Assembly (NCBI RefSeq): GCF_004348985.1 | Contig: NZ_SMKW01000022.1 | Span: 1-64,000, forward strand | Length of the DNA: 64,000 bases | From: Saccharopolyspora elongata | GTDB taxonomy: Bacteria > Actinomycetota > Actinomycetes > Mycobacteriales > Pseudonocardiaceae | Reading direction: 5' to 3' | In this document: positions 33,491 through 43,503 of the stretch, piece after piece | Layout: each line of letters starts with the position of its first letter | Numbering within the stretch: position 1 is the stretch's first letter | The notes under the pieces: model-generated | What the model saw: only the letters and a program-made list of their open reading frames with translations | What the model was told of the DNA's origin: nothing | The model's database searches: none | Made by a program: the position numbers and the translations under genes

Positions 33491-34134
<644 letters not shown>

Positions 34135-34138
34135 TCCT

Positions 34139-34175
34139 GACCGGTTCAGCCCGTCTCCGGCGAGCTGAACCGGTC
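34139..34175. terminator. Hairpin after katG remnant, 12-bp arms
   Basis: GACCGGTTCAGC pairs perfectly with GCTGAACCGGTC around 13 bases, five bases past the remnant's stop. Confidence 0.7.
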
Positions 34176-34186
34176 CGAAGAGGACA

Positions 34187-34218
34187 GCGAGACCCCGTCC
34201 ACCAGGACGGGGTCTCGC
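34187..34218. terminator. Terminator hairpin, 14-bp arms
   Basis: GCGAGACCCCGTCC and GGACGGGGTCTCGC enclose ACCA. It lies between the katG remnant and the convergent amidohydrolase and can stop transcription from both sides. Confidence 0.8.
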
Positions 34219-34229
34219 CGTTTCCGGCG

Positions 34230-35504
34230 CTACCGCTGGGATTCCAGGGCGCCCGACATGAGGCGGTGGATCACCTCGGTCAGCAGGTCGGTGCCCGCGC
34301 AGATGTCGTGATCGGGGGTGAATTCGCCTTCGTTGTGGGAAATGCCGTCGGCGCTGGGGACGAAGAGCATGACCGCGGGCGTGACGTCCTTCATGTTCAC
34401 CGAATCATGACCGGCGATGGTCATCATGGTCCGGTGCCGGAGCCCCAGCTCGTCGGCCACCTCGGCGGCGAGGTCCACCCCCGCACGTGGGAAGGGTGCT
34501 ACGCCCCATCCATGCGTCTGCACCACCTCGATGTCGACCGCCGCGCGCTCCTCGATGCCGGGGATGGACTCGGCGAGCTCTTTGGCCGCGTCTTCGAGGA
34601 ATGCCTCGTCGGGGGACCGCAGGTCGACGTGCATCCGCACCTCGCGCGCCACCACCACCGGCGAGTTGGGCTCGATGTACATCTCGCTCACCGAGGTGTG
34701 CAGCGGGACGGCCGCGGACCTCTCCGCCAGTTCGCGCACGGCCACGACCAGGAGGGAAGCGCCGAACAGCGCGTCGCGCCGGTCCGTCATGATCGTCGAT
34801 CCGGTGTGCGACTGCTCGCCGCGGACGATCACCTGGTACTTGCGTGCCGCCCAGGTCGAGCCGACGAGGCCGATCGTGGTGCCCGCGTTCTCGAGTTCTC
34901 GCCCCTGTTCGATGTGGATTTCCGCGTATGCGGCCAAATCCGGCCCGGCGTAGTCGCCGATCGTCCCGATCTCGCGGAGCGCGGCCCGCACCGAGGTCCC
35001 CGCCGGGTCGGTCGTGGCGAGCGCGGTCTCGGCGGGCAGCTTCCCGGCGAAGACCGCGCTGCCCATCATGCTCGGCTTGAACCGGGAACCTTCCTCGTTG
35101 AACCAGTTGACGACGGCGACGTTGTAGCGCGGGGAAGCGCCGGAGGCCCTCCAGCGCTCGACGGCTCGGTGCGCGGCGTGGGCTGCCGCCAGAACACCGT
35201 AGGCACCGTCGTAGCGGCCCCCGAGCGGCTGGCTGTCCAGGTGCGAACCGCTGAGGACGTACGGCGCGCCCGGCGTGAAGGTGAACAGGCCGAACTGGTT
35301 GCCCACGCCGTCGTAGTGCACTTCGAAGCCGTGGCCGGTCAGCCACCGGTGCAGCCAGGCGCGCTGTTCGCCGTCGGCAGCGGTGGCGGCCTGGCGATCG
35401 ACTCCGCCGCCGGGTGTCGCTCCGAATGCGGAGAGCGTCGCGAAGTCCTTCAGCAGTGCGGTGTTCTGCTCGTCCGGGGCCGGCGAGGCGGAGGCGCTTC
35501 TCAT
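34230..35504 (-). CDS. M20 Zn amidohydrolase (N-carbamoyl amino acid / ureidopropionase type)
   Basis: A 424-residue dizinc peptidase-fold enzyme of the hydantoinase/carbamoylase family. SGSHLDSQPLGGRYDGAYG (about 84-102) supplies the first His and bridging Asp, FNEEGSRF the Glu pair, EIHIEQG the third His region, and QSHTGSTIM the lid-side motif. It should hydrolyse an N-carbamoyl amino acid, ureidoglycolate-type or allantoate-type amide. AAGGACC before the ATG at 35504 decides the start. The PucR-type regulator gene just upstream, same strand, suggests nitrogen or purine/hydantoin regulation. Confidence 0.86.
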   Translation of the reverse strand: MRSASASPAPDEQNTALLKDFATLSAFGATPGGGVDRQAATAADGEQRAWLHRWLTGHGFEVHYDGVGNQFGLFTFTPGAPYVLSGSHLDSQPLGGRYDGAYGVLAAAHAAHRAVERWRASGASPRYNVAVVNWFNEEGSRFKPSMMGSAVFAGKLPAETALATTDPAGTSVRAALREIGTIGDYAGPDLAAYAEIHIEQGRELENAGTTIGLVGSTWAARKYQVIVRGEQSHTGSTIMTDRRDALFGASLLVVAVRELAERSAAVPLHTSVSEMYIEPNSPVVVAREVRMHVDLRSPDEAFLEDAAKELAESIPGIEERAAVDIEVVQTHGWGVAPFPRAGVDLAAEVADELGLRHRTMMTIAGHDSVNMKDVTPAVMLFVPSADGISHNEGEFTPDHDICAGTDLLTEVIHRLMSGALESQR

Positions 35505-35687
35505 GATCAGGTCCTTCTGGCGGGTTCGCGGCTCCTCGGATCCTCCGGTCGGCCGGATCCCAGTCGTCGCTGTTGTCGTGATCGTCGTGCCGTCCATTCG
35601 ACCCGAACCCGGGTCCGTGGGGAATTGCTGCCCGCCGCCGGAATCGGCGATTTCCTTGGGCGTATGCACAAGTCGCGGTGCAGCCGA

Positions 35688-36869
35688 TCAACCGGGGGCG
35701 ACCGCGCCGTCCGCGCGTTCTCGGCAGGCCAGGGCGACCAGGACCGCGGCGGCGTGCTCCGGCCGGGTCACGTCGTGCCCGGTGAGCTCGGCGAACCGGT
35801 GCAGCCGGTTGAGCACGGTGTTGCGATGGCAGAAGACCTCGTTCGCGACCGCGTTGATCGAACCGGACCGGAGATATGCCCGCACGGTCTCCAGCATGCG
35901 AGCCCGCTCATGCGGCGTGCCGGCGGCCGGTGCGGGGAGCACCTCGTCCCGCAGGGCTGCCGCGACCTCGCCCAGGCGGGCGCCGACGACATGCGGCCAC
36001 CGTTCGACGAGGTGGTGCGGCCGGCCGTCCTCGCCGCTGATCGTCGCGGCCACTTCCACGCTGATCCGCAGCGCCCGGGGCACGTCGGCGAGCCCGTTCG
36101 CGATCGGCCCGACGCCGCACGGCACGGAGTCGAGCCACGGCCCCGGTGTCCCCGGCGCCCGGTTCGGCAACTCGGCGATGAGCACCTGGCGCCGGTCGAC
36201 GTCCTGCAGATGGGCCGGAACGGGCGTGGCCCGCAACCGGTCGGCCGCCTGGCGCAGCGGGCGCGGCGCGTCGACGGGGGCGGCCGCGACCAGGAAGTCG
36301 CCCTTCGTGTTCATGCCGAGCGCCTGCGCGACCTGCTCGACGACCTGCGGATCACGTCCCCCGGTGGCCAGCAGCGAATCCACCAGGCGGTTTCGTTCGT
36401 CGTCGCGTTCCCTGGCCAGCACGGCGGCCTCGTTCTCGTAGGCCAGGTGCACCCGGGCGCTGTACTCCTCGACCACGTCCCAGACGCGAACGGTGTTGTG
36501 CACGAGGAGCGGGAGTTCGGACCGGTCCACCCGGCGCAGAAAAGCCGACCACATCACCCGGAAGTCCAGTCGCACCGCGCGGAGCAGGACTTCCAGCGGG
36601 ACGCCGAGGTGCGCGCGCCTGCGCCCGATCCGTTCGCAGGTGTCGCCGAGCCGCTGCGGCACGGGCAGGCCCGCGGCGGTGCGCAGGAGCAGTTCGATGC
36701 TGGCTTCGGCGTCCTCGCGCAGCTCCTCGTTCGGCACCGCGCCGCTGGCGTAGGGCTCGATCGCGCTCAGCTCCGCGATGAAGTCGTCGACCAGCTCGTC
36801 CAGGTCGTCCAAGCACGCATGCACCAGGCCGCGCAGCGGGCCGCCCGGCGCGATATCGACGTCCGCCAT
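35688..36869 (-). CDS. PucR/CdaR-type regulator
   Basis: A 393-residue regulator with the PucR C-terminal helix-turn-helix: ETVRAYLRSGSINAVANEVF, then CHRNTVLNRLHRFAELTGHD (about 328-370). A central GGDEF-like domain and an N-terminal helical sensor region (about 1-170) precede it, with no PucR N-terminal purine domain evident. Such proteins activate purine, sugar-acid or amidohydrolase genes, and the M20 enzyme starts about 180 bases downstream in the same direction. Confidence 0.83.
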   Translation of the reverse strand: MADVDIAPGGPLRGLVHACLDDLDELVDDFIAELSAIEPYASGAVPNEELREDAEASIELLLRTAAGLPVPQRLGDTCERIGRRRAHLGVPLEVLLRAVRLDFRVMWSAFLRRVDRSELPLLVHNTVRVWDVVEEYSARVHLAYENEAAVLARERDDERNRLVDSLLATGGRDPQVVEQVAQALGMNTKGDFLVAAAPVDAPRPLRQAADRLRATPVPAHLQDVDRRQVLIAELPNRAPGTPGPWLDSVPCGVGPIANGLADVPRALRISVEVAATISGEDGRPHHLVERWPHVVGARLGEVAAALRDEVLPAPAAGTPHERARMLETVRAYLRSGSINAVANEVFCHRNTVLNRLHRFAELTGHDVTRPEHAAAVLVALACRERADGAVAPG

Positions 36870-37157
36870 GTGTATGCGCCCATTCCGTCGCGATCTTCCA
36901 GGTCGTCCGCCTCATTGTGCGGGGCGGGGGAGTGCGCATCGGCGCCTGCGTGACGATTCGGGGCGATCACCGGCCGCTGCTCGTGTGCATTTGCCCGAGC
37001 CGCTCCGGGGAAGTAGCGGCATTTCGTCATTGTGCCCGGGTGTCGGTGCGAGCACGCTGTCCGCACAGGATCACCGGGTTCCCACTTGGACATGCGAGAG
37101 CCCACGCACCGATACGGGTACATCCCGGTCGATGCGGGGCTCTCTTTGTGTCTGGCC

Positions 37158-37697
37158 CTAGGCGATGGCCGCACGCACGTGGTCGCGGAGCGGGTTCGGC
37201 AGGGCATCGACGCTGAGCCAGTCGGCTCCGGTCACTTCTTCGGTCTGCAACGCACCAACGTCGCCGCTGGTGCGGAACAGGAACCGGAAGTCGAAGTGGT
37301 GGTGGTCGGGTTCGCCCTTCGCTGGGTTGGCGGGGATCGGGTGAACGTCGACGTGGATCGGATCTTCCCCATCCACCGATACCAGCTCCAGGTCGAAGCC
37401 GGTCTCCTCGCGCAGTTCTCGCAGCGCAGCGCCGAGCAGCGACTCGTCATCGGGTTCGAGGTGACCACCAGGCAGGAGCCAGCGGCCGAGCCCCTTGTGA
37501 CGGATGTGCAGAACTAGTCCCTCGTCGTTGACGAGGACAGCGCCAGCCGTTGCGTGTCCACGGAACTCGGTGCGAGGCGTGATGTCCACGCCCGCGTCGA
37601 GTAGATCCGTGATCATCTTGAGTTCGTCAACGTACTCGGGCCGGACCGTCAGATAGGTCTTGACCGTCTGGGAGAGGTTTTCATGTGTGATCGGCAT
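37158..37697 (-). CDS. NUDIX hydrolase
   Basis: A 179-residue NUDIX protein. LLPGGHLEPDDESLLGAA followed by LRELREETGF (about 73-101) is the NUDIX box, with one residue more than the strict spacing, as is common in actinobacterial members. The N-terminal 45 residues form an extra helical region. It should cleave a nucleoside diphosphate linked to another moiety. It starts four bases after the SAH-hydrolase-like gene stops and its ribosome site (AGGTGA) lies inside that gene, so the two are cotranscribed. The pair suggests action on one nucleotide-derived compound. Confidence 0.87.
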   Translation of the reverse strand: MPITHENLSQTVKTYLTVRPEYVDELKMITDLLDAGVDITPRTEFRGHATAGAVLVNDEGLVLHIRHKGLGRWLLPGGHLEPDDESLLGAALRELREETGFDLELVSVDGEDPIHVDVHPIPANPAKGEPDHHHFDFRFLFRTSGDVGALQTEEVTGADWLSVDALPNPLRDHVRAAIA

Positions 37698-37701
37698 CTG
37701 T

Positions 37702-38820
37702 TCACCTGTTGAAGTAGTTCAGCCATGTTGCGGCGATCATGGGTCGGCAGTCGGCCACTTCGTGCATGCCGGGCTCCAGGTTGCGTTGGGAAAGCCTGGC
37801 AACGGCGGCAAGGATCTCGGCCTGAACCAGGAAGATGAACGGCCCCACGCTCGCGCCGTGGAGAAAGTTCACTGCGTTGCCCTTGTTCAGGAGATAGAAG
37901 TAGTGGCCGGTCGTCATGTATCGGGTGATGTCATCGGTGATCGGAGTCCGGTCGTACACCTCCGTGAGTCCGTCCATTTCCAGTTCGTCCTCGCTGCTCG
38001 TGACGGTGGCTACGTATGCGCCGTTCCTGAGCTGCGGGAAGTCTTCGCCGTGCAATGACAAGCGGCCGGTGGCGCAGAGCACGAGCCCCGCGTCCACGAG
38101 TGCGGACCGGCAATCTCGGGCCACCGTGAACCCCTGCGAGAGGCCCTGCGTTCGGCGTACGGGGTCGATGTCGTACACGGTGACGCGGACCCCCTTTACG
38201 TGGAGCAGCCGGGCGATGGAGCTCCCCAGCTTGCCAAAGCCGATCACCAGCGCGTTTCGCCCGTGCAGGATGTCGCCCCGGCTGCGCATGAGGGCTTCGG
38301 CGCTGAATACGACTGACTGTCCGACCAGGTAGTCTTCAGGGTCCTTGAGCGGTGACCGCGCCACCGAGACCACCGGGCACGGCAGCTTCAGATCTTGGTA
38401 TCGCTGGTGTCCGTTCTCGGTGTCCTCCACCACGCCGAGAACTTCCCCCGAGAAGCGGTCACACAACTCGGTGAGGACCGGCGCGAAGTACCCGCCGACG
38501 TCCAGTAAGACCACCGGCCTCCCAGCGGCTCGCGCTTCCAGGTAGTCGACGGCACGGTCTGCGTCACTGAAGAGATCACGCGAGAGTCGATCGCACACGT
38601 AGCCGTCCGCCTCGACCTGACGTGCCGCGACGTTGTCGATCGACTTCGGCTTGGGCAGCACAGCGCGCAGATCGGTCAGGTGGCCCACGGCCCGAACGAA
38701 CGCAGGGCGCTCGGGCAGCACGTGGGTGATCAAGAATGAGCTTGGCCGCTCGTCTGCGGGAACTTGAGCAACGATCCGGCCGAAGTAGGCATCGAGGTTC
38801 GCTCGCTCGAAAGCTTCCAT
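37702..38820 (-). CDS. S-adenosylhomocysteine-hydrolase-like protein
   Basis: A 372-residue protein with the SAHH NAD-binding domain: ALVIGFGKLGSSIARLLHVKG (about 188-208) and VYDIDPVRRTQGLSQGF. Also present are the TSSEDELEMDGL and LLNKGNAVNFLHG (about 314-326) segments, the latter like the GRLVNLxxG ending of SAHH. True SAH hydrolases exceed 430 residues and end in a conserved Lys-Tyr tail, which is absent, so substrate and activity probably differ. It is the first gene of the NUDIX operon. Confidence 0.78.
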   Translation of the reverse strand: MEAFERANLDAYFGRIVAQVPADERPSSFLITHVLPERPAFVRAVGHLTDLRAVLPKPKSIDNVAARQVEADGYVCDRLSRDLFSDADRAVDYLEARAAGRPVVLLDVGGYFAPVLTELCDRFSGEVLGVVEDTENGHQRYQDLKLPCPVVSVARSPLKDPEDYLVGQSVVFSAEALMRSRGDILHGRNALVIGFGKLGSSIARLLHVKGVRVTVYDIDPVRRTQGLSQGFTVARDCRSALVDAGLVLCATGRLSLHGEDFPQLRNGAYVATVTSSEDELEMDGLTEVYDRTPITDDITRYMTTGHYFYLLNKGNAVNFLHGASVGPFIFLVQAEILAAVARLSQRNLEPGMHEVADCRPMIAATWLNYFNR

Positions 38821-39262
38821 CTGCGAAACCTGTCCCTTTCGTGTCGGTACTACTTCTCAGCGGTCGTGCGTGGTTCGGTAGCTGGAGAGGGAAGCGCCCA
38901 GCGCTGGATGAAGCCGGTTGCGACGGCGGGTCGCTCGGCAGCCTTGTGCCGCGATTTCTCCGATCAGGTAGGCGGCTCCAGCGCTGGGCACTTCATCCCG
39001 GAAGAGAAAAATGCTGCGCCGTCGTGTCAGGGGGCGTGCACAACTGGGCAGCATCACCCGATGCTGCCTCGTGCTGATCAGCGCCAGCACGAGGGCATCG
39101 GGTTACCTCTGGCGGGGTTTTCCTGGTTCGTGCGGCGGATGGTTCGGGTTGCCGCAGGCGATACACTCCACGCTGGGACTGCCTCCCTTCTCAACTCGTC
39201 GGATTGGTGGCCCTGCTCGGTGTCCGGTGTGAGAGCTGCGAGCACCGGCAGGGAATCTGTAG
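38821..39262. other. 442-base stretch without a supported gene
   Basis: Open frames exist on both strands but none shows a ribosome site, conserved motif or actinobacterial codon pattern. It separates the NUDIX operon from the Cys-rich protein operon; promoters for the SAHH-like gene must lie in its left end. Confidence 0.5.
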
Positions 39263-39646
39263 TCAGGCGATGCGAGAAACCTCGGTAGCCTTCGCGGAAG
39301 TGGTTCCTGCCAGGTAAGGACTGGCAGGAACCACTTCTGAACGATCTACCTCTAGCGCTTCGGCCAAGATCCGCGCCCGATCGGTCTGCGGTGGGTCGTC
39401 GGGGTCGTCGAACGGCCACATGATTTCGTCGCCCTTGGAGGGCAGCGCTGGCAACCAGTTGACGATGTTCGCGCAGACCTGGCACACCGACCGGCGATCG
39501 ACGGGAGGGCCCTCTCTGATCCTGCGGTGCACAGGCCCATAGAGCCGGTGGCCGCAGGCAACAACGAACGATCCGCCGGAGTCGGTGACATCGCAGACGT
39601 GCCAACGAGCTTCGCGGGCGCTCGCGACCCAAGCGCGCTGACTCAC
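39263..39646 (-). CDS. Small Cys-rich protein of unknown function
   Basis: A 127-residue protein starting at GTG within the GTGA overlap with the 30-residue gene upstream. WHVCDVTDSGGSFVVACGHR (about 16-35) and VDRRSVCQVC (about 49-58) give four cysteines spaced like a small zinc-binding fold. The rest is acidic and without family resemblance. An extra GTG nine bases upstream is possible. The C-terminal coding region contains a 16-bp-arm perfect inverted repeat. I do not recognise a function. Confidence 0.6.
   Translation of the reverse strand: MSQRAWVASAREARWHVCDVTDSGGSFVVACGHRLYGPVHRRIREGPPVDRRSVCQVCANIVNWLPALPSKGDEIMWPFDDPDDPPQTDRARILAEALEVDRSEVVPASPYLAGTTSAKATEVSRIA
39298..39336. repeat. 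16-bp-arm perfect inverted repeat inside a gene end
   Basis: AAGTGGTTCCTGCCAG and CTGGCAGGAACCACTT enclose GTAAGGA. It falls within the last 25 codons of the Cys-rich protein gene. It looks like a terminator whose stem is translated, or evidence that the true gene end was extended. Confidence 0.7.
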
Positions 39647-39735
39647 GGTCGCCACCCCGTGTCGTCGCCAGCTCGCCAGGCGAGCCAGCTCAGCGCCAAC
39701 ACGATGATCGCCAAGACAACGGTGAACGGAACCAT
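39643..39735 (-). CDS. 30-residue single-pass membrane peptide
   Basis: The frame ATG...TGA encodes MVPFTVVLAIIVLALSWLAW followed by a short polar tail (RAGDDTGWRP): one membrane helix with a charged C-terminus. A perfect AGGAGG stands nine bases before the ATG. The stop overlaps the GTG start of the Cys-rich protein in GTGA, so translation is coupled. The strong ribosome site and coupling make it a real small gene. Confidence 0.65.
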   Translation of the reverse strand: MVPFTVVLAIIVLALSWLAWRAGDDTGWRP

Positions 39736-39871
39736 CAAGACGTGCCTCCTGGTTTTGACCCGGCCGAATCGTGTCTGCATTCCTCAATGAGGCAGCTAAG
39801 AAGATCGCGAAATGACACTGCCTGATCGACGGTCCATGTCGTGACTTGTGCGGGGGCCGGGGAGAGGATCT

Positions 39872-40258
39872 TTATTCCTCTTCCTCCTTCTGTTTTTTCG
39901 AGGAGCATTCGCCTGCGCTGTCTGGCAACATTGCATTCAGCACTGCGCCAGTGTTCAGAATCCAATCTGGGTACCTCGATCCCACTGATTCCCAATGGGC
40001 AAATAGATTCGCAATGAATTGACGCACGCATTCCCCGCAGAAATCGTGTCTGCTTGCGTCCAGTTGCGCGGGCGGTTCTGGTGGCAGTTGCATCTGCTCC
40101 CCGCATAGTCCGCCCAGGAGCCCGCCCTGGGAGCTCTCGGCCAGGCATCGCGTTGTGCCATGGATGACCACCGAGCCGACTGGGAGTACCCAGCGCACGA
40201 GTTCCTCGTTCGTACCAGCTGTCAGCTCGCCGAAAGTGGCGCGCTTGGTCATCGACAC
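39872..40258 (-). CDS. Small Cys-containing protein, unknown function
   Basis: A 128-residue protein (GTG at 40258, alternative ATG at 40252). Cys pairs occur in GTTRCLAES/GLCGEQM (about residues 38-56) and HDFCGECVRQF (about 71-81), a pattern suggestive of a zinc knuckle. It ends in a charged KKQKEEEE tail. The base composition is visibly less GC-rich than the flanking catabolic operons. Divergent from the XRE-TPR regulator; probably in the same regulated group as the membrane peptide and the Cys-rich protein downstream. No family recognised. Confidence 0.6.
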   Translation of the reverse strand: MSMTKRATFGELTAGTNEELVRWVLPVGSVVIHGTTRCLAESSQGGLLGGLCGEQMQLPPEPPAQLDASRHDFCGECVRQFIANLFAHWESVGSRYPDWILNTGAVLNAMLPDSAGECSSKKQKEEEE

Positions 40259-40280
40259 GATGACATCACTCCCCGTTGAT

Positions 40281-40306
40281 CGAGCACCTGATTACGAGCG
40301 TGCTCG
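40281..40306. promoter_or_regulatory. Inverted repeat in the XRE divergent promoter
   Basis: CGAGCAC (40281-40287) and GTGCTCG (40300-40306) are perfect arms around 12 bases in the gap between the Cys-rich gene and the XRE regulator. A TACACT -10-like box is at 40396-40401, facing the regulator. Confidence 0.4.
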
Positions 40307-40430
40307 CTGGGAGGGGGTCGCAAGAGGGAGAATTACAGGGAGCGCAAGGGGAGACTTCGGGGAGAGTTGCACCCCCCGCTGCGCGATCAGTCCATTACAC
40401 TGAGCGACACCCTGGTCCCAAGGAGTCGAC

Positions 40431-41687
40431 TTGTCTGAGCCGAACGACGCGCTGCGCGCCGCTCGCGAAAGCGTCGAATCGCCGTCGTCACCAGGGCAGC
40501 CCTTAACCCGCGAGGAGCTGGCTGAGGCGGTGAATGCGCAGGTCTTCCGCTCGACCGGGAAGGTCACGGCTATCGATGCCAACCACATTGGGAAGTGGGA
40601 GCGAGGCGTAATCAGGTGGCCGGCTGCGCACTATCGCGCAGCAATCCGAGCGGTCCTTGACGTTGCAACCGACGCCGACCTTGGGTTTAGAAGAGGCGGC
40701 AGCGGGTGTACCACTGAGGACGTGGACCGCAAAACATTCTTACGAAGCACCCTCGGTCTCGGAGCGGGTGCTGCGCTGGCACGCGCCACACCAGCCGTCG
40801 CCGCACTGGCAGGCGGGCAAGACGATCTCGTGTCAGCAGTCGCAGGCCCGACCCAGGATTACCGGCGCATGGAATCCAGCGTCTCGTCTCAGTACCTCGC
40901 TCCAGCCGCAGAAGGGCACCTGCGACTGGCCAAGCAGGTAGTGCATGAGAAAGTTCGCAGCAGCAAGGGCTTTTCAACGTTGAGCGAGATCGCGGGCCTC
41001 GCAGCGTGGCTTGCGGCAGATCGAGGTGACTCCGCGACGGCTCGCGCTCGCTACAAGGAGAGCATCCGCTACGCGGAATCGTCTCGAAATTCGCTGCTGG
41101 TCTCCTACATGACGGCCAGCTTGGGGCACTACGCCGTTGAGATGGGTGATCCCCGCCAAGGATTGCATCTGCTCGATCGCGCTGCGCAGTACCAGGACGG
41201 TCACACTCCTGCTGCTGCACGCGCCTGGCTGGCTTCCCTGCGTGCCGTCGCGTTCGGCGCGATGGGAGATCGAGCGCAAACGTTGGACGCGCTCCGAACA
41301 GCTCAGCGCAACACCGATCGCCAGACCAGCGACGCTCAATGGCCGTGGGTGTTCGCGTTTACTTCCGCCAAGGCGGCTCGATACCAGTCAACCGCGCTTG
41401 CCGCGCTGGGCGACTACTCGGGCTCCCGTGCTGCCTATACAGCCGCGATCCCCACGATCACCGCGCCAAAGCCACTGGCGCTTGCAAAGGTCGAGTTCGC
41501 GGATCTCATGGTGTCCATGCGCCAGGAGGATGAAGCGTGTCGTCTCGCAGTGGAGGCGCTTCAGGTCGGTAAGCAGTACGGCTCGGAAAAGATCGTCGAG
41601 CGCGTGCGTGATCTGCGTTCCCGGATGGGCACGATGTGCCGCGACGCCAAGTTGCTTGATCGTATGTTGATCGACCTCTACGACTGA
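40431..41687 (+). CDS. XRE-family regulator with TPR domain
   Basis: A 418-residue protein starting at TTG, decided by AAGGAG twelve bases upstream. The N-terminal HTH region (LTREELAEAVNAQVFRSTGK to WERGVIRWP, about 25-65) is followed by FLRSTLGLGAGAALARA, a hydrophobic twin-arginine-like linker found in many actinobacterial members. About 270 residues of TPR-like helices follow (for example LAADRGDSATARARYKESIR near 195-214). Such proteins are thought to bind a peptide or nucleotide ligand with the TPR part. It lies 10 bases before the SLOG gene, in one operon. Confidence 0.8.
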   Translation: MSEPNDALRAARESVESPSSPGQPLTREELAEAVNAQVFRSTGKVTAIDANHIGKWERGVIRWPAAHYRAAIRAVLDVATDADLGFRRGGSGCTTEDVDRKTFLRSTLGLGAGAALARATPAVAALAGGQDDLVSAVAGPTQDYRRMESSVSSQYLAPAAEGHLRLAKQVVHEKVRSSKGFSTLSEIAGLAAWLAADRGDSATARARYKESIRYAESSRNSLLVSYMTASLGHYAVEMGDPRQGLHLLDRAAQYQDGHTPAAARAWLASLRAVAFGAMGDRAQTLDALRTAQRNTDRQTSDAQWPWVFAFTSAKAARYQSTALAALGDYSGSRAAYTAAIPTITAPKPLALAKVEFADLMVSMRQEDEACRLAVEALQVGKQYGSEKIVERVRDLRSRMGTMCRDAKLLDRMLIDLYD

Positions 41688-41697
41688 AGGAGCGACT

Positions 41698-42174
41698 GTG
41701 ACGCGACTTGCTGTGACGGGACACCGAGGGCTGCCACAGCAGACCACAGAACTGGTGCAGCATGCGCTCCGTGTCGAGTTGGGGAAGTATGGCGACTCCC
41801 TGATCGGGCTGAGCTGCATCGCGGACGGCGCGGATACGCTCTTCGCACGAGCGGTCCTCGATCAAGGCGGGTCGCTGATCGTCATCGTTCCGGCAGCCAA
41901 CTACCGCGAGAAACTTCCGGAAGAGCACCACGCCGACTACGACGAACTGTTCAGCCGGGCCTCGGAGATCATCCGGCTCGACTTCCCCGATTCGACCTCC
42001 GAGTCCCACATGACGGCCAGCGTCAAGATGATCGAGCTGGCAGATCGCCTCGTTGCGGTGTGGGATGGCAAGCCTGCTCGGGGCTACGGGGGCACGGCTG
42101 ATGTTGTGGATGCCGCTCGTGAGCGTGATCTCCCGGTCACCGTCATCTGGCCGGATGGAGCCGAGCGCGACTAG
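41698..42174 (+). CDS. SLOG-fold nucleotide-binding protein
   Basis: A 158-residue Rossmann-like protein. LAVTGHRGLPQQTTELVQ at the start (TGHRGL, about 7-12), SCIADGADTLFARAVLDQGG (about 40-59) and VWDGKPARGYGGTADVV (about 120-136) match the LOG/DprA-like (SLOG, DUF1273-type) group that binds nucleotides or nucleotide-derived signals. GTG start, ten bases after the regulator stop. In SLOG-containing conflict systems the protein senses or makes a nucleotide messenger. Here the neighbours are a TPR regulator, a NUDIX and an SAHH-like enzyme, so a nucleotide-linked role is reasonable but unproven. Confidence 0.75.
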   Translation: MTRLAVTGHRGLPQQTTELVQHALRVELGKYGDSLIGLSCIADGADTLFARAVLDQGGSLIVIVPAANYREKLPEEHHADYDELFSRASEIIRLDFPDSTSESHMTASVKMIELADRLVAVWDGKPARGYGGTADVVDAARERDLPVTVIWPDGAERD

Positions 42175-42250
42175 CCTCGCTGCATGTTGGTGGCCAGTTG
42201 CAATTCCCCGCAGGCGAGCACCGAATGAGTCTGGGTTCCGGTCCGCGCTG

Positions 42251-43321
42251 CTAGAGCATCGGCTGCACGATGCCGTTCTCGTCCACGTTGCCGGCGAATT
42301 CCTCCCAGTCCATGTTCGCTATCGAGAGGTTGTTCTCGATCTCCTGGATCGCCGGTGGAGTGGCGCGGAAGGTCTGGCCGAGGTTTTCCTCGTCGAGATC
42401 GACGACCAGCACGTGGCGTTCGGGGGATTCCATGGTCGCCTTGTCGGCGACGACCAGCAACGCCCAGTCGGCGTCCGGCGGCACCAGCTGGACGAGTTGT
42501 GCGGCGGTCAGGCCTTCGAACCTGATGTCGTCGACGGGTTCCACGTCCGCGGTGAAGACGTCGTCGTCGAACACCTGGCGCGGTGCGGTCACCTGGCTGC
42601 TCGCAGCGGCCCACGCCTCGTCGTCGGAGAAATCGGTGCGCACCAGGGGCACCGACCCGATCAGCGGCAACTGCGGCGTGCCGGCCGGAACCTCCGCTGG
42701 CGCCACCGGTTCGCGCGCCTCCTCGAACAGCGGCGCTTCCGGGGGTTCCACGAGCGTGCCCCGGTAGGCGACCGGGGCTTGGCCCGCCGGTTGGCGGTAG
42801 CCGATGAAGTTGGCGCTGGATCGCTTGAGGGTCAGGCCGCTGACCACGAACTCCTCGGACTCGCCGGACCAGCCGGGCTTCCACAGCCCGACCGAGTACG
42901 CGTTGCCCGACCGGTCGCGCCACGCCGCCCACTGCAGCGGCGACTCCTCGCCGTCATCGATGAGGAACCGCAGCCGTCCCGCCGGGTGCCACCCCTTGCC
43001 CAGGGTTTCGGTGGTGAACTCGAACCCGTGGACACCATCGGCGTCCTCGAAGACCTCGTGGCCTTCGAGCTCGCCGCGAACCTGGACCAGATGGGCGCTG
43101 GCTGCTCGCCGGTGGCCGAAACAACTGCTCATGTCCGGCGCGAATGCGAGCGCGGACTCCGCGCCGTCCCGCGTGACCCAGGACAGCTGCTCCGGCACCG
43201 CGCTCCCGTCTTCGGCGAGGTGCACCAGCAGCCGAGGGCCTGGCTCCCACTCCACGGCCGCCAGATCACGCCGCCACATGCGAAAGACGAACACCGAAGC
43301 GTCGCCCGAAGCCGACTGCAC
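42251..43321 (-). CDS. Uncharacterised protein with DUF6924-like C-terminus
   Basis: A 356-residue protein. The start is GTG at 43321, chosen for GAGGAGA four bases upstream; GTG at 43294 is an alternative. The C-terminal 100 residues (LTAAQLVQLVPPDADWALLV, later ENNLSIANMDWEEFAGNVDE) resemble the DUF6924 domain of actinobacteria. The first half is beta-rich with many Trp and Gly (GLWKPGWSGESEEFVVSG) and no recognised motif. Cytoplasmic, no signal. Convergent with the SLOG operon. Function unknown. Confidence 0.72.
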   Translation of the reverse strand: MQSASGDASVFVFRMWRRDLAAVEWEPGPRLLVHLAEDGSAVPEQLSWVTRDGAESALAFAPDMSSCFGHRRAASAHLVQVRGELEGHEVFEDADGVHGFEFTTETLGKGWHPAGRLRFLIDDGEESPLQWAAWRDRSGNAYSVGLWKPGWSGESEEFVVSGLTLKRSSANFIGYRQPAGQAPVAYRGTLVEPPEAPLFEEAREPVAPAEVPAGTPQLPLIGSVPLVRTDFSDDEAWAAASSQVTAPRQVFDDDVFTADVEPVDDIRFEGLTAAQLVQLVPPDADWALLVVADKATMESPERHVLVVDLDEENLGQTFRATPPAIQEIENNLSIANMDWEEFAGNVDENGIVQPML

Positions 43322-43503
43322 AGAAGTCTCCTCGAAACCACGGCGCCGGGACACCCGGCCCGGCGGCACCTCACGAGCGAGACCCAACGTAGCCACGCCC
43401 CATGACAGGCAGCGCCACATCCAGCGAGGACTGTCCCTGCGGGCATGTTGCGAAGCCTGAAAGGGCAGCGGAATGCTCGACTGTCTCTTGTGGACTCCGG
43501 TGC

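Follow-up and report, generated by a model that had tools for sequence, protein, structure and literature searches.

The seven genes found at 37158-42174 of the window, by which we mean the whole stretch of 64,000 nucleotides of Saccharopolyspora elongata DNA analysed here (contig C137 of a 10.3-Mb genome in 277 contigs), raise the question of whether they constitute a single system and what such a system would do. The minus strand carries genes for a Cys-rich protein (Cys-rich 2), a membrane peptide, a second Cys-rich protein (Cys-rich 1), an enzyme resembling S-adenosylhomocysteine hydrolase (SAH hydrolase, SAHH) and a NUDIX hydrolase, and the plus strand carries, opposed to them, genes for an XRE-TPR regulator and a SLOG protein. 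All seven reading frames were recovered in place, and the GC content of the 5-kb stretch starting at 37501 is 62.9%, against a window median of 70.4% and 68.4% for the lowest 5-kb stretch outside the region. The two opposed sets in a less GC-biased stretch, as described in an earlier note made from the letters of this DNA, are thus borne out.

That note had grouped the seven genes as one module, which does not hold. They are a mosaic of three conserved modules usually found apart, and not a fixed or obligate seven-gene system: the pair formed by the SAHH-like enzyme and the NUDIX protein (module A), the Cys-rich proteins with the membrane peptide (module B), and the XRE-TPR/SLOG pair (module C). 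Concerning their function, we give roughly even chances to the locus being an imported, two-enzyme cassette that modifies nucleosides or nucleotides, placed under a portable and autoregulated sensor module. The gene families, the pairings, the swapping of regulators, a conserved repeat array and the horizontal origin are all supported by the computation described below, and the term "nucleotide-linked" used in the note is plausible judging from the gene families.

The SAHH-like enzyme and its NUDIX partner

The NAD-binding domain PF00670 (57 bits) was the sole Pfam SAHH model matched by the SAHH-like protein, which was not recovered by PF05221 in the genome search and scored 72 bits against the NCBIfam ahcY model, whose cut-off is 498. 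Its AlphaFold model (predicted local distance difference test, pLDDT, 91.7) has SAH hydrolases as the 50 best matches listed from the Protein Data Bank, with template modelling (TM) scores of 0.62-0.78 and identities of 17-23%. Accordingly, the protein displays the NAD-binding domain and the fold of an adenosylhomocysteinase, and lacks the canonical active-site set made up of Cys195, His301 and the C-terminal Lys/Tyr tail. In a profile alignment to the three canonical SAH hydrolases of the same genome, K159 and D163 align with the catalytic Lys and Asp, Q168 and S275 occupy the canonical Cys and His positions, and the alignment leaves out the final 31 residues of the canonical copies. For the catalytic roles of the aligned positions, and for their human numbers, we take Lys186, Asp190, Cys195 and His301 to be the counterparts. 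Residues D133, T134, K159, D163, S275 and H321 are invariant across 34 members of the SAHH-like family. The C-terminal end reported as missing in the earlier note is indeed absent, but judging from these alignments its absence is a trait of the family and not a truncation at this locus. We infer that the enzyme would still oxidise a sugar hydroxyl with the help of NAD, and would differ in its substrate and in the reactions that follow.

Since three canonical SAH hydrolase genes are located elsewhere in the genome (contigs C171, C147 and C77), the SAHH-like protein is not a housekeeping enzyme. The three copies may stem from duplication or from a mixed assembly; the genome has an estimated contamination of 3.3% and is larger than those of six sampled congeners. 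On contig C253 (L257, L258) a second cluster was seen by eye, in which several SAHH-domain open reading frames (ORFs) lie beside phosphorylase-, mutase-, kinase- and histidine-phosphatase-like genes, possibly a nucleoside pathway.

The partner protein matches PF00293 with 73 bits and has an intact Nudix box at residue 78, which places it among the NUDIX hydrolases. In order to find relatives of the SAHH-like protein, 84,980 species were searched, each represented by one genome; 111 stretches encode a relative, and the best 80 were kept. A NUDIX gene adjoins the SAHH-like gene in 71 of these 80 loci, mostly from actinomycetes. In the other nine the NUDIX gene lies one gene off (L081) or overlaps (L070), the SAHH match is partial (L065, L074), or the locus belongs to a larger cluster considered further below (L030, L034, L036, L037, L046). 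The pair was likewise found in Cupriavidus, in a Nomurabacterium, in a Flavobacterium and on a plasmid, and twice it was seen by eye with a transporter-like ORF (L076, L081). Two Streptomyces plasmids (L201, L202) encode longer proteins bearing the window's type of NUDIX at their N-terminus, next to thymidylate synthase, MazG-like and radical SAM genes or to an FxLD methyltransferase gene.

A survey of the neighbourhood of 98 SAHH loci revealed NsdA-family regulators as the commonest upstream partner of SAHH-NUDIX outside the larger cluster. In fact, 18 matches lie at most 3.7 kb upstream, all of them divergent, versus 2 elsewhere in these loci, a count made with a profile trained partly on the proteins then counted and including two near-duplicates (L215/L216), one member of the larger cluster's clade (L038) and four scores below 75 bits (L038, L206, L215, L216). 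Likewise NCBIfam, which is independent of this profile, places nine of ten chosen upstream regulators above its NsdA cut-off. The genome itself has nine NsdA-family genes in 10.3 Mb. In many other loci the upstream spot is taken by a GntR regulator, an XRE-DUF5753 regulator or a helix-turn-helix protein with DUF218, and in some by none; the protein that accompanies some of the XRE-DUF5753 regulators is presumably DUF6879. Because the SAHH tree requires eight changes for the NsdA label and four for each of the three other regulator labels, the regulators have been swapped while the SAHH-NUDIX enzymes stayed.

The XRE-TPR/SLOG pair and a candidate operator

With 175 bits against the NCBIfam NsdA family NF053720 (cut-off 75), the XRE-TPR protein belongs to the NsdA family. 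Taken alone, the SLOG protein of the window has no Pfam match; among 29 relatives, weak matches at E values up to 1 touch DprA (15), YAcAr (8) and Cap17-like (4) models. Its AlphaFold model (pLDDT 94.6) is nearest to YpsA of Bacillus subtilis (2nx2; TM 0.81), followed by DprA, ShosA and, lower, LOG, and on this modelled structure the protein has a Rossmannoid YpsA-like SLOG fold. Within 150 genomes of the window's family, 11 XRE-TPR relatives at E <= 1e-50 are found in ten genomes, our own included, and a SLOG gene adjoins ten of the 11, the exception being a fragment. Contig C201 (L255) of the same genome carries another SLOG gene (48-49% identical), immediately preceded by an NsdA-family regulator that is too distant for inclusion among the 11.

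Five GGGAG repeats precede the XRE-TPR gene, and the last three are spaced 11 bp. The window contains the arrangement GGGAG-N6-GGGAG-N6-GGGAG once, and none of 100 shuffles had it. A more specific form, GGGAG[CT]GCAAGGGGAG, gave six sites in the 150 family genomes (G000, G079, G038, G097, G010 and G067), each just upstream of an XRE-TPR/SLOG pair. What lies behind the array varies from site to site. The cargo includes SAHH-NUDIX in the window; a Cys-rich ORF, a GFO/IDH oxidoreductase, a DegT aminotransferase and another NUDIX in G079; a Cys-rich ORF and a radical SAM-CYTH protein in G038, with a like protein in G097 (two congeners); small ORFs and an MFS transporter in G010; and small ORFs in G067. 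In G079, G038 and G097 the cargo begins with a Cys-rich ORF. The intergenic regions of NsdA genes in SAHH loci also show phased repeats in six of 16 cases (lag 11, or 12 in L005), a signal reached by at most 7 of 300 shuffles. Based on these patterns, the GGGAG array is a candidate operator to which an NsdA-type regulator is predicted to bind.

The Cys-rich proteins and the membrane peptide

Cys-rich 1 probably starts at the GTG at 39646, because this codon overlaps the TGA of the membrane peptide as GTGA. Translational coupling of the two, claimed in the earlier note, is therefore plausible; the 30 amino acids given there for the peptide apply if an internal ATG is used, and 45 otherwise. No Pfam family was matched by the Cys-rich proteins of the window or by the relatives of Cys-rich 1. 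Matches to Cys-rich 1 at E <= 0.001 occur in 18 of the family genomes besides its own, and matches to Cys-rich 2 at 15 places outside the window, in six family genomes besides its own. In Cys-rich 2, H33, C52-G53, H71, C74 and C77 are invariant in ten sequences, and from the pattern of His and Cys across relatives (judged by eye for Cys-rich 1) both proteins appear zinc-ribbon-like.

Cys-rich 1 adjoins Cys-rich 2 at 11 of the 15 places, all 11 in one genus. Five of the module B places were viewed with wide flanks (L154-L157, L159), and in these the module is transcribed divergently from an XRE gene with a DUF397-type gene behind it (by eye), while DUF397 gave no match among the small proteins of the window or the relatives of Cys-rich 1. 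Since three of the five Cys-rich 1 relatives (L155, L157, L159; by eye) begin with a fused hydrophobic segment, the separate membrane peptide of the window looks like a split anchor.

Assembly and origin of the locus

The homologues of the seven genes are not isolated from each other, as a refutation foreseen in the earlier note would have had them, because a second member of the set is shared and the small ORFs are conserved (pairings of 71/80, 10/11 and 11/15). The stronger expectation of that note, that four or more of the seven recur side by side in different genera and at different genome positions, is borne out thinly, in few loci. In Streptomyces spiralis (L012), SLOG and XRE-TPR genes stand opposite small ORFs, a SAHH-like gene and a NUDIX gene, which amounts to four of the seven. 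The congener G112 displays the same order and opposed layout, with NUDIX (90% identity), SAHH residues 308-372 (89%), XRE-TPR residues 314-418 (85%) and SLOG (91-92%); its middle is deleted, so that two of the four genes are truncated, and its flanking genes differ from those of the window. Among the 98 SAHH loci, SLOG turned up in L012 alone. Module A opposite module C therefore occurs in two lineages, but rarely.

The cassette was probably imported horizontally, since the SAHH-like protein is rare in its own family, its clade is devoid of family members and the GC content is low. At E <= 1e-40, two of the 150 family genomes encode the protein, its own and another with 37% identity; in the class it is found in 18 of 394 genomes, its own included. 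On the tree it sits in a 100/98 clade with 21 rows, none from the window's family: 15 Streptomycetaceae, one Streptomycetaceae plasmid, one unplaced actinobacterium and four genomes of other families. No clean empty site was shown among seven genomes (our own and six congeners): at E <= 1e-60, G112 and G145 have no counterpart of the gene on the left flank, and at E <= 1e-40 the one on the right flank is found in its own genome only. The island edges have no direct repeat of at least 9 bp and no inverted match of at least 10 bp in common. Integrase, replication and transfer genes were not seen by eye in the window's gene list, the profile scan having reached as far as the two nearest flank genes. 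A phage origin was discarded, as 3 of 50,697 phage records match, all partially and below 30% identity, and viral structures reach at best a TM of 0.36 over the query.

Layout of the locus

The features of the locus are collected in Table 1. The SAHH-like stop codon and the NUDIX gene are 4 nt apart, and the XRE-TPR and SLOG genes 10 nt. Because 442 bp separate Cys-rich 1 from the SAHH-like gene, the minus-strand genes would not necessarily be transcribed as a single operon. This gap contains an 18-nt inverted repeat (94% complementarity) at 38891-38994, and the palindrome CCAGCGCTGG is present twice within the same stretch. No known RNA family was detected at the gathering cut-off over 36800-42400, and promoter and terminator predictions were discarded since they showed no excess over shuffles. 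The gene lists for the window and the other loci come from a home-made caller based on codon GC bias, in which some genes are fused or missed; the predicted gene at 34092-36953, for instance, is probably an antisense artefact over a PucR-type gene and its neighbour. Beside the island, the protein at 42251-43435 has an OAA-family lectin domain and DUF6924.

Table 1. Genes and other features of the locus, in window coordinates
Feature	Position	Strand	Description
NUDIX hydrolase	37158..37697	-	179 aa (amino acids), N-terminal extension, intact Nudix box
SAHH-like NAD enzyme	37702..38820	-	372 aa, divergent family without canonical C-terminal tail
Gap between Cys-rich 1 and SAHH-like genes	38821..39262		442 bp, contains inverted repeat
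Cys-rich protein 1	39263..39646	-	127 aa from probable GTG start at 39646, pattern WH..CGH..CxxC
Membrane peptide	39643..39780	-	45 aa, or 30 aa from internal ATG at 39735
Cys-rich protein 2	39872..40258	-	128 aa, H/C pattern in alignment of 10 sequences
Candidate operator, GGGAG repeats	40309..40364		GGGAG at 40309, 40326, 40338, 40349, 40360
NsdA-family XRE-TPR regulator	40431..41687	+	418 aa, NF053720 match
YpsA-like SLOG protein	41698..42174	+	158 aa, fold match of AlphaFold model

Proposed function and alternatives

In order to account for these observations, we hypothesize that the NsdA-family XRE-TPR protein and the YpsA-like SLOG protein act as a sensor-regulator pair, in which the former would most likely bind the 11-bp-spaced GGGAG array between the two opposed gene sets and thereby control its own expression and that of the divergent genes. 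The regulator would be released by a signal of nucleotide type, which the SLOG protein probably senses or makes. On the cargo side, two putative zinc-ribbon-like proteins, one of them with a separately encoded membrane anchor, would be followed by the two-enzyme unit. With its bound NAD, the SAHH-like protein may oxidise a sugar hydroxyl (3'-OH) of a nucleoside-type substrate, which would enable an elimination or a substitution next to the oxidised position, and the NUDIX protein may hydrolyse a diphosphate bond, either in the same compound or in one linked to it, so that the two enzymes together would alter or remove one specific nucleoside or nucleotide. In this scheme the DNA binding, the direction of regulation, the ligand, the substrates and the biological role are what we infer.

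Several observations weigh against an imported cassette under an array-binding sensor module. The bare GGGAG pattern is unspecific, with 50 matches in 30 of the 150 genomes as compared with 19 for the reversed control, and four of the ten XRE-TPR/SLOG pairs are without the exact array, which is absent in G017, G023 and G003 (the start of the G003 XRE-TPR gene being extrapolated in this check) and degenerate in G145. Ten of the 16 NsdA intergenic regions are without phased repeats, and among the six that have them the window shows the weakest signal (7 of 300 shuffles) and three are from Kitasatospora. Control regions were phased in 6 of 80 cases at no more than 2 of 100 shuffles, none of them at lag 11, and a test with exact pentamers picked three regions, namely the window, L005 and L011. 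As to the cassette, SLOG accompanies SAHH-NUDIX in three loci only (the window, L012 and the damaged G112), the NUDIX relatives on the three Streptomyces plasmids viewed have no SAHH annotated in their vicinity, and the SAHH-like gene could possibly have a promoter of its own within the 442-bp gap.

Among the alternatives, the one that survives best, unlikely as we consider it, is that SAHH-NUDIX was copied from a larger cluster as a stray or self-protecting piece of a pathway for a nucleoside natural product, and that the regulator only senses the product. A thymidylate-synthase-like or carbamoyltransferase marker of such a cluster is carried by 36 of the 98 SAHH loci, and in L048 the cluster comprises 13 genes, among them thymidylate-synthase-like, carbamoyltransferase, glycosyltransferase-like, methyltransferase, APH-type, epimerase, SAHH-like, NUDIX and cytidylyltransferase genes. 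AgmF, a homologue of SAHH, is a dehydratase in angustmycin biosynthesis (PMC8599513), and on an L. plantarum plasmid a distant SAHH relative comes after an annotated phosphohydrolase and an MFS transporter. Nevertheless, the SAHH proteins of the larger cluster form a separate clade (100/99; 35 of 38 rows with markers) from that of the window, whose members have regulators of their own, and 62 of the 98 loci show neither marker, in some cases because the contig is short. In addition, AgmF reportedly keeps the key catalytic residues, unlike the SAHH-like family of the window (PMC8599513). The larger cluster, nucleoside-like and biosynthetic in content, is nearly restricted to Streptomyces, and mobile-element-like genes follow in 10-16 loci (by eye); a literature search aimed at it gave no matching description.

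A conflict module, serving phage defence or the exclusion of mobile DNA in the manner of Pif, a NUDIX protein of pSAM2, in which SLOG and NUDIX would deal with signals of the NAD or ADP-ribose type, is in our view improbable. The link to conflict systems drawn in the earlier note found no direct support, given that the known anti-phage systems of PADLOC-DB yielded weak matches only, the best being the NUDIX protein against the candidate model PDC-S07 (17.4 bits, E 6e-4), and a defence system recognisable by profile was discarded on this ground. Furthermore, there is no obvious killing or cutting gene at the locus, and the accessible part of the literature on SLOG/NUDIX conflict systems gave no description of this gene set. 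What speaks for such a role is the YpsA-like fold of the SLOG protein, whose following matches include DprA and ShosA, together with the finding of SAHH-like genes on plasmids. YpsA-like SLOG domains include cyclic ADP-ribose sensors (PMC9503650), and actinobacterial integrative and conjugative elements (ICEs) carry an HD-hydrolase/NUDIX/XRE cluster as well as NsdA-like XRE genes, Pif conferring conjugal immunity (PMC3218068).

It is likewise improbable that the three modules are chance neighbours in a low-GC island with no joint function. The three loci in which SLOG meets SAHH-NUDIX would agree with it, and so would module B lying divergent from XRE/DUF397-type genes (DUF397 by eye) in the five loci viewed in one genus, but chance would hardly explain the NsdA regulators facing SAHH-NUDIX (18 matches versus 2), the recurrence of A opposite C in S. 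spiralis and G112, or the leading position of Cys-rich ORFs behind three of the arrays. Finally, a secreted membrane peptide read by the TPR domain, for which RRNPP peptide signalling offers a precedent, is highly improbable. A short hydrophobic ORF does occur among the divergent small ORFs of L012 and L162 (by eye), but the fusion of the hydrophobic segment to Cys-rich 1 relatives in three of five cases fits an anchor and not a released peptide, and the membrane peptide has no relative in the loci searched.

Beyond the imported cassette under its sensor module, we put forward as speculation, with rather low confidence, that XRE-TPR/SLOG is a portable nucleotide-signal switch serving a cargo-swapping form of small-molecule signalling. 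The SLOG protein would make or read an NAD- or ADP-ribose-type ligand to which the TPR regulator responds, the phased-repeat operator would turn on whichever enzyme cargo lies behind it, and the SAHH-like and NUDIX enzymes, the oxidoreductase with DegT and NUDIX, and the radical SAM-CYTH protein would act on one class of small molecules. The six array sites provide a handle on the role of the SLOG partner, and the array offers a concrete candidate operator for an NsdA-type regulator. Equally, the SAHH-like proteins constitute a widespread family in which several catalytic residues are changed, the redox core is kept and NUDIX is the usual partner.

Comparison with known systems

The earlier note could name no known system with this gene set, and this stands to the extent that the literature consulted, which included few subscription papers, gave no description of the SAHH-NUDIX pair, the cassette or a cargo-swapping switch, and that no defence match was convincing. 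The SAHH-like protein has in common with SAH hydrolase the overall fold, the NAD domain and the equivalents of Lys186 and Asp190, and differs from it in its length of 372 aa, in lacking the canonical C-terminal tail, in the changed equivalents of Cys195 and His301 and in its pairing with NUDIX. A close parallel in a pathway is AgmF, a SAHH-type protein that performs another nucleoside reaction and is encoded in a cluster with a LOG homologue (PMC8599513). The angustmycin cluster and the cassette thus both combine a SAHH-type protein with a LOG/SLOG-type neighbour; AgmF differs in its catalytic residues, as already mentioned, and the word "Nudix" is absent from the main text of that paper.

The HD hydrolase-NUDIX-XRE/Pif genes of ICEs resemble the window in uniting NUDIX with an XRE gene, in the NsdA-like XRE proteins and possibly in a mobile context, whereas the text on them mentions no SAHH ("homocysteine" has 0 occurrences) and its passages showed no SLOG (PMC3218068). 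The window locus, for its part, displays no transfer genes by eye. The XRE-DUF397/WhiJ-BldB systems are likewise similar, since they comprise an XRE regulator, small accessory proteins, a divergent target and intergenic repeats, with WhiJ9 reported to bind direct repeats between divergent genes (PMC10294661). In contrast, the window has an NsdA-type XRE-TPR with SLOG, and its small proteins do not match DUF397. The SLOG protein, in turn, would share its modelled fold with YpsA, DprA and LOG, and it is distinguished from these by being a stand-alone protein of 158 aa co-encoded with XRE-TPR.

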